A DNA stretch of 64,000 nucleotides, taken from the NCBI GenBank assembly GCA_037074705.1, contig CM073592.1, forward strand, positions 26,260,629 to 26,324,628, in the 5' to 3' direction. Made by a program: the position numbers and the translations under genes. The stretch's first letter is position 1. Each line of letters starts with the position of its first letter. Shown one piece after another: positions 3,631 through 7,200 of this stretch. This stretch comes from Zhengitettix transpicula. Taxonomy: Eukaryota; Arthropoda; Insecta; Orthoptera; Tetrigidae. The notes under the pieces are model-generated. The model had not been told where the DNA came from, did not search any database, and saw nothing but the letters and a program-made list of their open reading frames with translations.

Positions 3631-4269
3631 TCACTTGTTGTTGCCTTTGACCTCACAGAAGTCAAAGTTTCCCACAATGGAGGCCACGTTGGGTTGATGC
3701 AACACTGTCTGGAACCACCGGAAAACATTCTTGTGATTCTTGCGAGTATCAGGGCCCATCACATGCTGGTAAAGAGGTACAAAAGAGCAGAAAAGTGCAA
3801 CATCAGCAAGAGTGACTCTCTCCCCCACAAAAAAAGTTCTTGTCAGCAGGTAATTATCAAGAGCCTTCAGGATCATGTTCACCTCTCTCCTAGATTCCTT
3901 GACATTCCCACCAGATGATTGGAGACCCAGAGATGAGTAGACCCAAGGTGAAGATATAGGTGAAACATGGTTCTCAGCAAAGTTCATCCACTGCAAGACT
4001 TGGGCATAACCAATGTCAGAGTTTCCTCCTTTTAACTGAGCATTAGCCAAATAAAGAGCAATTGCATCACTATCAAACAAGTAAAGCTGATTGTCAGGAT
4101 CTTCCAGGGCAGGCACTTTTCCTAAGTAAAACTTCTTTTCATACTCAGGGTCCTTGACAGCTAAATCAAAGCCATCAGTGCAGACAGTCAATGTTTTCCC
4201 AGAGAATTTGGCTGCTATCTGAACCTTGAGTGCCCTGGGGTTATTGGGGTTTGTGTATAGTGTCAATCC
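3631..4269 (-). other. eEF1-gamma-like GST domain fused to the C-terminus of AlaRS
   Basis: In the last AlaRS exon the reading frame runs on past the usual C-terminus. A linker of about 20 residues (AAAGTGDISTPIFKPSKPAG) leads into a complete GST fold of about 212 residues. It opens with LTLYTNPNNPRALKVQIAA, corresponding to the start of eukaryotic elongation factor 1-gamma. It continues with GKVPALEDPDNQLYLFDSDA, the N-terminal thioredoxin-like half. It then has VLQWMNFAENHVSP and RTFFVGERVTLADVALFCSF, the helical C-terminal half. It stops at FDFCEVKGNNK, where eEF1-gamma passes from GST domain to linker. In other synthetases such domains mediate assembly with eEF1B or the multisynthetase complex. 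That this one does the same is inference. No stop codon or splice site separates it from AlaRS. Confidence 0.9.
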
Positions 4270-7200
4270 AGCTGGCTTGCTCGGTTTAAAGATTGGAGTA
4301 GAGATGTCACCAGTACCAGCAGCTGCACCTAACTTTGACATGGCAAAATCAGTGGCAACCTTTAGGACTTGTTTGAGACACAAATAGTTGCTGCCCGAAG
4401 CTTGGGCAGACTCAGGCTTTCCTCCACCCTTACCCTGCATGAGGGCCGATACCTGCTGTACCCATTCATTGGCCTTTAGTCCTTTGTTCACAGCATTCTG
4501 AAAAATATTGACAAAATCTCTATCATAAATTGTGAGGCAGCTGTTGTTAATTAACTTTACAGTACTGCAAGTTTAAGAATTGACAAAGGCACTAATAAAA
4601 CTAAACACTTGTGTAATTTATGAGAGAATTTGATAGGGAATGTAAAACTTTCTTCACAAGAAACGTGTTGAGACATGGCATTTTTAGATTTACCCCGAAT
4701 TTTTGGTGCATAGAAACAAGTGATGTTCACTATATGAAAGCATATAGTGCATCAAGAAGAAAGGTGAATATTCTGAGATTCCCCATTTGAGTGATAGTAC
4801 ATAAGTACAAGATAAAATGAAAGATTCTATGCTTACATGTCTGTGTACTATATATTTATTTATACATAAAATGTTATGTCATAAGCAGATGGTGGCTTCC
4901 AGCGGCCCTCAAGCCCACTTGTAGTCATAACTGACAACCATTGGACTTGTATCAATAATATATCAATATCTTCTAACAGTTACTTAAAAATATAACATTA
5001 AAAGTCTTACAACTTCTTGCATAGAAAAATGTTATTATTCTATTTCGAAATGTCATTTAAGTAAAAACTGTCATCTATTTACAACATAAAAGTAATACAG
5101 CACCTCTTGACTATTCCAATCTCTTAAATACTTCAATCACATTTAACAAGACTGGTTAATCAAATAATGGCTGAGGTGCCAATGAGTCGTCAATAGGCAA
5201 TATTGAATGCTGTGAATGTTAAACATATTTTGGATTTGATAGAGCAAACAATTTGATATGCTTATAGAATTGACAAGTATTCACTGACAAAAGTATTCTA
5301 CACTAAAGAATAGCACACGAAACAAGAAAACTGAACTTTATACTATAAAATCTGAATAAGATGCTGCTTTACCGTGGGGACTGCTGCCAAGCAAACTATT
5401 TTCTTTGTGTCTTCATCAACACTGAAAAACATGGCTGATGTTTCTGGAGAGACAATCTTGACTTGTTTCAATGCACCATCCAGGGCCTGAAACAAACAGT
5501 TTCCTTGTTAACTTTTCACATTTCAATGACCTACAGACATCTGGAGATAATTAAGTGAGAGAACTACATTATATGCATGGTTAGTTTTTGATGAACATAA
5601 AATCAGTATTGATATATAATTGAAACTTAATACAGTTTCTTGGTAATAGAATATATAGCGATTAATAATTAAAAAGATAGCCAAATACAGACAAAATAAG
5701 GGATAATATAAATACCACACAACATTTTTGAGATCCTTGTCCCTTTCTTCCAGTGCTAAGAAGAGCCTAGAGTGACACAACTGCACATGTCAGTTAACAA
5801 AAGTCAAAATCTTGCACAGTTGTGTTGCTCTAGGCTCTTCTTAGCACTGGAAGAAAGGGACAAGGATCTCAAAAACGTTGTGTGGTATTTATATTATCAC
5901 TTATTTTGTCTGTATTTGGCTATATTTATTATTATTAATTTTCAATCAGACAATTTTTTTAGATAGCGGTTAAATTCAGGGTGTCACTGAAACTGAATAT
6001 AATTCCAACATATTTAAAAGAACACTTTATATACATTTAAATGGAAACAATGTGGTTCAAATGCCTCATAAAATTATATAATTGAACAATTTATTTACCT
6101 TGGTATTAGATAATGCTTTTAACTCGCATATAATGAATGGAGCATTTGGAGAAGCTAGAGCAATAGTTTTGGCTTGTTCTGCAACATTGCTGCTCACAGC
6201 AGCTTTTCCAGCTCTCTCCTTGTCATCGAGTTGCTTCTTCATTTTTTTTAAAGTTGATCTCATTTCCTCCTGAAAAAAAGAGAAAATATTTGCAACACAC
6301 ATATAACATTAAAAATATTACACATAATAAAGTCTGCAATTTAATACAGATGATCATGCGACCAATGAAAAAAAAGGATAATAAAAAATAATGTAAATAA
6401 GCATCAACATTCAAGGACTTTTTTTTTACCAATCATGCCTGCAGTAGACAACTCTGCTCTTCTTTACAAAAAAAGAAGCATTAGTCAAACAAACTCGAAT
6501 CAGCTTCGGAGGGGGGAGGGAGGGAGGGGGAAGATATATATATATATGAGAGGGGGAGAGGGGGGAGGGGAGGGAGGGAGGGGAGAGAGGTTTTCTAAGG
6601 TTTAGGATACCCTTGGAAGGAAATTCTTTCCTTTATTTATGGCCAATTAGCTGGAGGAAAATACATTCGTGACTGGACTATACAGAAGTCATGGGGGCAC
6701 ACATCTTGTGAAAAACAGAATATTTTTCATTTTTACATGAATTACAATTGGATTATTTAAGAAAACAAACAAAATTTGTGAACCCTGTTTTAAAGGCATT
6801 AAGATAACACTACCTTCTTCCAGTAAGGGATGGTTGCATGAGATACATCATTCGTCAGCTCCACAATTTTCTTGACAAAGTCTTTTGGAGAAGTTGCAAA
6901 CTCAGGCTGACAGAGCATTGCCTGAAGTTTGTTGAGCTCATTCTCCAATACTTCTGTCTTCATGAGAGCCTACACAAAACACATAATCAAACGTGAAATA
7001 TATTTGCCTTTTTAAAGACCATCTAAACCAAATCGTTAGTCAACTAAAATGAATTACAGACTCTATATACTCCAAACCCTAACAAAAAATATACATACTT
7101 TTAATTACACTTCCAAATATTCTACATACCTTAGCTCCCAAATTGAAGCTGAATTAATTTTAATAATTTTTTGGCAGATATATAAAATACTTTTATTAAG

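Follow-up and report, generated by a model that had tools for sequence, protein, structure and literature searches.

The 64,000-nucleotide stretch of Zhengitettix transpicula (Orthoptera; Tetrigidae) DNA studied here (the window; assembly GCA_037074705.1, contig CM073592.1, positions 26,260,629 to 26,324,628) carries a gene for alanyl-tRNA synthetase (AlaRS), predicted to be the cytosolic enzyme, whose last exon runs on in frame into a glutathione S-transferase (GST) domain of the type found in the elongation factor subunit eEF1-gamma. The gene lies on the minus strand, from 18253 to 3631 in window coordinates, and comprises 17 exons encoding 1199 residues. We spliced the model by hand from the genomic sequence; 16/16 introns have GT-AG borders, and no stop interrupts the reading frame. 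The features of the gene are as follows.

3631..18253, minus strand: cytosolic AlaRS gene, ATG at 18253-18251 and stop at 3633-3631 (hand splicing, Pfam)
18107..18253, minus strand: first coding exon, residues 1-49 (gene model)
7688..8196, minus strand: largest internal exon, residues 559-727, in which the PF01411 match ends and the SAD match starts (gene model, Pfam)
3631..4497, minus strand: last exon, residues 912-1199 plus stop (open reading frame, gene model, Pfam, PDB match)
4330..4497, minus strand: end of the C-Ala tail, residues 912-967, with DHHA1 reaching 963 (Pfam, tail comparison)
4270..4329, minus strand: linker, residues 968-987, in part modelled with low confidence (predicted model)
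4042..4269, minus strand: N-terminal, thioredoxin-like half of the GST domain, residues 988-1063 (PF02798, model)
3691..3903, minus strand: C-terminal helical half of the GST domain, Pfam core residues 1110-1180 (PF00043), with most of the positions retained from eEF1-gamma
3023..3028, minus strand: first AATAAA past the stop, about 600 nucleotides downstream (consensus match only)

An AG acceptor at 4498-4499 precedes the last exon, whose first base was therefore set at 4497. From 4497 to 3631, the C-Ala tail, the linker and the GST domain (residues 912-1199) form one open frame. The open reading frame in this exon (3631..4491, minus strand) is 286 residues long, and the plus-strand frame over the same stretch is riddled with stops. 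An initial annotation of this DNA had proposed an uninterrupted last exon at 3631..4497, and both the acceptor and the open frame bear it out; the motifs it had singled out, ERVTLADV, WMNFAENHVSP and FFVGE, are all found in the translation. Elsewhere in the gene, two introns contain inverted repeats. Intron 15/16 holds a MITE-like (miniature inverted-repeat transposable element) pair of 123 nucleotides (5661-5783/5817-5939), 94% complementary and 33 nucleotides apart, and intron 11/12 holds nested pairs of 64 nucleotides (8779-8842/8979-9042) and 46 nucleotides (8837-8882/8892-8937).

Pfam matches to the whole protein, all above the curated cut-off, follow one another in the order tRNA-synt_2c (PF01411; E 5.8e-219, residues 10-597), tRNA_SAD (E 2.9e-12, residues 696-754, the editing domain), DHHA1 (E 2.5e-13, residues 860-963), GST_N (PF02798; E 6.8e-09, residues 988-1063) and GST_C (PF00043; E 7.4e-13, residues 1110-1180). 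The class II alanine catalytic domain, the SAD editing domain and DHHA1/C-Ala, the domains by which an AlaRS is recognised, are all present in order, and the core is 81% identical to AlaRS from Blattella. The C-terminal domain of eEF1-gamma (PF00647) was absent from the Pfam matches to the 1199-residue protein and from the 64-kb window. When the last 230 residues of four proteins were compared with the window by tblastn in a search for a downstream PF00647 remnant, only the GST end and chance matches (E≥1.3) were returned.

The appended domain most resembles eEF1-gamma in sequence and in predicted fold. In a PDB sequence search with the last-exon reading frame, the top match was the GST domain of human eEF1-gamma (5dqs, E 4.2e-46, query residues 75-281); residues 2-55 matched the human AlaRS C-Ala domain (5t5s, E 2.9e-15). 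Weaker matches were to EEF1E1 (AIMP3; E 8e-6) and the MetRS GST domain (E 3e-4), and Pfam Arc1p_N_like was also matched above its cut-off. An AlphaFold2 monomer model of the last exon had a mean predicted local distance difference test score (pLDDT) of 86, with most ten-residue blocks of the GST domain at 89-98 and linker residues 972-981 (model residues 61-70) below 50. Searched against the PDB with Foldseek, this model returned as its top five matches human eEF1-gamma GST chains from complexes with eEF1B-alpha or -delta (5jpo, 5dqs), at template modelling (TM) scores of 0.88-0.92 by target and 40-41% identity; the sixth was a human elongation factor 1 complex (9a9s). Among solved structures, eEF1-gamma (EEF1G) is the nearest in both structure and sequence, and identity between the window GST and the 120 eEF1-gamma proteins listed (the best 120 of 3411) is 38.8-47.8%. 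Unlike eEF1-gamma, the window fusion lacks the C-terminal domain.

Gene model, Pfam and predicted fold therefore place a full synthetase and a GST-like domain in one chain, and Pfam, PDB and Foldseek each recover GST_N and GST_C of the eEF1-gamma type in it. The evidence for this architecture is far above chance, and we regard an AlaRS with a full eEF1-gamma-type GST in one frame, as the initial annotation had read it, as practically certain.

We searched the genome (993.6 Mb in 337 contigs) for further copies of either partner. No full-length cytosolic AlaRS gene other than that of the window was found. A divergent AlaRS-like gene on a second contig (C2; 30-69% identity) is probably the mitochondrial AlaRS. 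In addition, contig C5 carries a lone copy of an AlaRS exon (C5:16791136-16791300, residues 269-323, 84% identity), possibly a pseudo-exon or transduced fragment. A second full cytosolic AlaRS was considered and rejected, the search having returned only these two besides the window gene. PF00647 was found in two exons of a single gene, an ordinary eEF1-gamma on C2, and with the window GST as query (E≤0.01) only the domain itself and this C2 gene were recovered.

The extension is widely shared. A search for AlaRS relatives with the GST region alone yielded only 2 proteins, and the wider region of residues 780-1199 yielded 319; the counts that follow rest on the best 120 of these 319. Taking BLASTP E≤1e-3 as the threshold for a GST carrier, the domain is present in 86/120 and absent in 34/120. 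The carriers include Hymenoptera (Apis, Bombus, ants, the wasp Nasonia, Cephus), locusts, crickets and cockroaches (Schistocerca, Anabrus, Gryllus, Periplaneta, Blattella), other insects (Timema, the bugs Homalodisca, Cimex and Rhodnius, Thrips palmi, lice, mayflies and a damselfly) and two barnacles, Pollicipes and Amphibalanus. Eight of the 86 (Periplaneta, Blattella, Anabrus, Gryllus and four more) also have PF00647 and hence a complete eEF1-gamma at the AlaRS end. Separate eEF1-gamma proteins of Periplaneta, Schistocerca, Cephus, Homalodisca and others are among those listed. In 19 of the carriers the longest contig is only 3.2-8.7 kb, shorter than the 14.6-kb gene of the window, as would fit assembled transcripts running across the junction. 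The named taxa in the best 120 include no chelicerate, myriapod, water flea or springtail. The suggestion in the initial annotation that the fusion might be lineage-specific therefore has to be given up, since proteins of many insect orders, and of barnacles as well, are predicted to carry this extension. The fusion is real and widely shared, and it is likely ancient.

Named relatives without the GST include the beetles Nicrophorus and Carabus, Hyposmocoma, Hermetia, Chrysoperla, Frankliniella fusca, Athalia (isoform X2), Zootermopsis and Cryptotermes. The cytosolic AlaRS of Hermetia, Nicrophorus and Hyposmocoma is the same enzyme to about residue 968 and ends at the C-Ala tail, whereas the window protein continues into the GST. 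The 34 include a few fragments or proteins named as isoforms, and names ending in "isoform X2" (Athalia, Zootermopsis) indicate that some GST-less proteins may be splice forms. Because 26 of the 34 stop 22 residues past the AQA(S/T)G landmark, full-length ones mostly at 961-968 residues, the extension measures about 231 residues, in agreement with the roughly 230 residues past a normal end near 968 that had been proposed at the outset. The tails of Zootermopsis (P0078), P0079 and P0082 end at DGPV or NGPxLQ, the point at which cockroach proteins enter the first GST strand; by the look of these sequences, they have been truncated.

We next considered the origin of the domain. The first GST tree held 28 fused domains (the window and 27 of the 86 carriers) and 21 eEF1-gamma domains (20 of the 120 listed and human); 27 of the 28 fused domains formed one clade with support 99/93, and an arrangement with all 28 together was not rejected by the approximately unbiased (AU) test (p 0.51). 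In the second tree the two longest branches, Ala_unk91 and Ala_Ephemera, were left out and the genome's own eEF1-gamma was added. All 26 fused domains (the window and 25 of the 86) then formed one clade (100/90), and the genome's own eEF1-gamma fell with the eEF1-gamma rows. The fused clade is placed beside or among these rows; both trees comprised fused AlaRS and eEF1-gamma domains. A clade uniting the window GST with the genome's own eEF1-gamma gave p-AU 0.004, which rejects a recent fusion from that gene. With one fused clade and such a recent fusion rejected, the likely reading is that a duplicate of eEF1-gamma was joined to AlaRS a single time, early in pancrustacean history, and these sequences make a single old origin of the fusion highly probable.

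The AlaRS core tree, built by a quick method, had 49 rows (the window and 48 of the 120 listed). The window was sister to Schistocerca (SH-like approximate likelihood ratio test, SH-aLRT, 92), beside Anabrus and Gryllus (98), a position that points to an insect and probably to an orthopteran. Presence and absence of the GST require 7 changes on this tree. The change count alone cannot separate gain from loss; one early gain followed by several losses is simplest because the fused domain sequences share one origin.

Introns bear on how the domain was copied. In the genome's eEF1-gamma gene the GST is encoded by five exons with GT-AG borders, with four introns inside it and one at each side. The fused GST, together with the linker and the C-Ala end, occupies a single exon with none of these introns. 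The absence of the parent gene's introns suggests a retrocopy, and a processed, intronless origin of the fused domain seems to us the moderately probable course; complete later intron loss is an alternative that would look the same.

From these data we propose the following course of events. An eEF1-gamma duplicate, likely a processed intronless copy, would have joined AlaRS in a single event in an early pancrustacean; its C-terminal domain would later have been lost in most lineages, including that of the window, and the GST domain would have been lost altogether in several. The fused GST would dock AlaRS to the eEF1B exchange complex and so put newly made Ala-tRNA next to eEF1A. Docking might take the form of a GST-GST heterodimer with eEF1-gamma; alternatively, like eEF1-gamma, the fused domain might bind eEF1B-alpha and eEF1B-beta/delta at their N-terminal parts. 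Of the predicted roles, recruitment to the elongation machinery seems the most plausible, and by analogy we judge docking to eEF1B itself to be evenly balanced. The whole explanation, an eEF1-gamma-derived GST fused once with docking as its predicted function, we consider slightly favoured. A bolder version, which we put forward tentatively, is that a retrocopied eEF1-gamma at the AlaRS end wired Ala-tRNA synthesis into eEF1B as the pancrustacean counterpart of vertebrate ValRS, with cockroaches and crickets keeping the whole eEF1-gamma and flies, moths, beetles and termites having discarded it.

Several observations weigh against this explanation. The fused domain unk91, the longest branch, stays outside the fused clade when all rows are included. 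In the unconstrained C-terminal-domain tree, two of the eight fused ones stand apart from the other six (grouped at 100/97); these two belong to proteins placed with Pollicipes in the core tree, and forcing all eight into one clade was not rejected (p-AU 0.55). The fused domain diverges fast: between the window and seven species it is 36.5-51.7% identical, while the AlaRS core reaches 71-80% and the eEF1-gamma GST 73-84%. The 34 GST-less relatives include beetle, fly, moth, lacewing and termite proteins, and thus the domain seems dispensable. Of 107 alignment columns 90% fixed in eEF1-gamma, 44 are retained in 60% of the fused set and 63 are not, and therefore the contacts of eEF1-gamma may not persist. 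This loss is strongest in the N-terminal half; the 44 retained columns lie mostly in helices 3, 4, 6 and 7 and in the loop before helix 6. Finally, the absence of introns was seen in one genome only.

Catalysis is unlikely as a common function. The segment KFxLGKVPAxE, which we take to be the glutathione site, is kept in the window and gapped in 7 hymenopteran and 4 hemipteran alignment rows.

Besides docking to eEF1B, homodimerisation, slow decay and multi-synthetase docking are less probable explanations. As a homodimerisation module, the GST would pair AlaRS chains, which would work as a dimer without eEF1B. Human eEF1-gamma GST makes classic GST homodimers in crystals, according to passages of PMC10452860, and helix 3 is among the better-kept segments; however, positions in helices 4 and 5 that are fixed in eEF1-gamma are only partly kept, and nothing specific favours self-pairing over a heterodimer with eEF1-gamma, which leaves this explanation unlikely.

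Somewhat more doubtful is the view that the extension is a decaying relict, tolerated and doing little. It would account for the fast divergence, for the absence of the C-terminal domain from 78 of the 86 listed carriers and of the GST from the 34, for the 7 changes on the 49-row tree, and for the Zootermopsis, P0079 and P0082 tails that stop where the GST starts. Yet 86 of the 120 listed relatives retain the GST, a handful of whose core residues (T, A, D, R, W, Q) are fixed, and an unselected frame of 230 codons would not be expected to remain open for so long.

Less probable again is that the domain brings AlaRS to the multi-synthetase complex by way of the MetRS-AIMP3-EPRS-AIMP2 GST cluster. 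The GST-like domains of MetRS and GluProRS act in this way, as excerpts of PMC4394549 have it, and the Arc1p_N_like match and the weak AIMP3 (EEF1E1) and MetRS GST matches point in the same direction, but the eEF1-gamma match is far stronger (E 4.2e-46 vs 8e-6 for EEF1E1 and 3e-4 for MetRS), with MetRS and AIMP domains outside the trees. That two adjacent genes were merged by the gene model or an assembly error, a concern with a model spliced by hand, is hardly credible and was rejected, because the junction sits within a single open exon in the genomic sequence and recurs in many species that were annotated separately, and because eEF1-gamma itself is encoded on a different contig of this genome.

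Why certain synthetases dock to the elongation machinery is a long-standing open question. Synthetases that carry an added GST-like domain for docking are a known class, and the fusion belongs with them; what is unusual is its source, a whole eEF1-gamma, and its host, AlaRS. Its closest counterpart is vertebrate ValRS, which joins eEF1B via a GST-like domain needed for EF1B-beta binding and possibly limited to Deuterostomia (both from passages of PMC4394549). By passages of PMC10452860, human eEF1-gamma GST has been crystallised with eEF1B partners and makes homodimers, and a heterodimer of the VARS1 and EEF1G GST domains is predicted. Both ValRS and the window enzyme are synthetases with an appended GST-like domain; ValRS docks to eEF1B, whereas docking of AlaRS is predicted. 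ValRS is also another synthetase with the domain at the opposite end, and the AlaRS fusion was found in insects and barnacles.

AARS Online, in the part of its description consulted (PMC11580382), places the GST superfamily in CysRS, GluRS-E, MetRS and ValRS, with AlaRS not among them. The window protein differs from CysRS, GluRS-E and MetRS in being the class II alanine enzyme with an eEF1-gamma-type domain at its C terminus. Caenorhabditis elegans MetRS is fused to a p43-like domain (PMC4394549, in part), which is similar in that a scaffold protein of a synthetase complex is fused in cis to a synthetase, although synthetase and scaffold are different and the host is a nematode. A 2020 review of synthetases names GST domains in Pro-GluRS, MetRS and AIMP2/3 in the portion consulted (PMC7373986). 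The term GST is absent from the consulted passages of a Drosophila synthetase paper (PMC4826098) and, by term search within the text available, from a C. elegans C-Ala paper (PMC10485164). The initial annotation knew of no described AlaRS case, and we found no description of a GST or eEF1-gamma domain on AlaRS in the titles and abstract openings of the open-licence papers searched; one may exist elsewhere. It had also allowed that the extension might already be annotated and studied in related insects. The first part holds to the extent that these proteins are often auto-annotated merely as alanine--tRNA ligase; no study of the domain was found in the literature searched.

The occurrence of the same enzyme with a full eEF1-gamma, with the GST only and with neither amounts to a natural experiment. 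If the proposed docking is true, the fusion is a convergent answer to the ValRS-eEF1B link of vertebrates. The fly, the usual insect model, may not show this link; Hermetia, the one named fly among those listed, is without the GST.

Several other coding features lie in the window. Upstream of AlaRS and divergent from it, a single-exon open reading frame of 318 residues with WD40 repeats (19639-20595, plus strand) is presumably WDR82-like. Convergent with AlaRS, a reading frame at 712-1029 (plus strand) has a weak LCAT match, below cut-off; a lysosomal phospholipase A2 gene may end here. At 27075-27695 (minus strand) lies a fragment of a reverse transcriptase, whose RVT_1 match is weak and also below cut-off. 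Farther on are exons of a GCIP (cyclin-D-interacting) gene (49588-51342, minus strand) and of a CRAL-TRIO gene (54621-55832, plus strand), the first CRAL-TRIO match of which is below cut-off.

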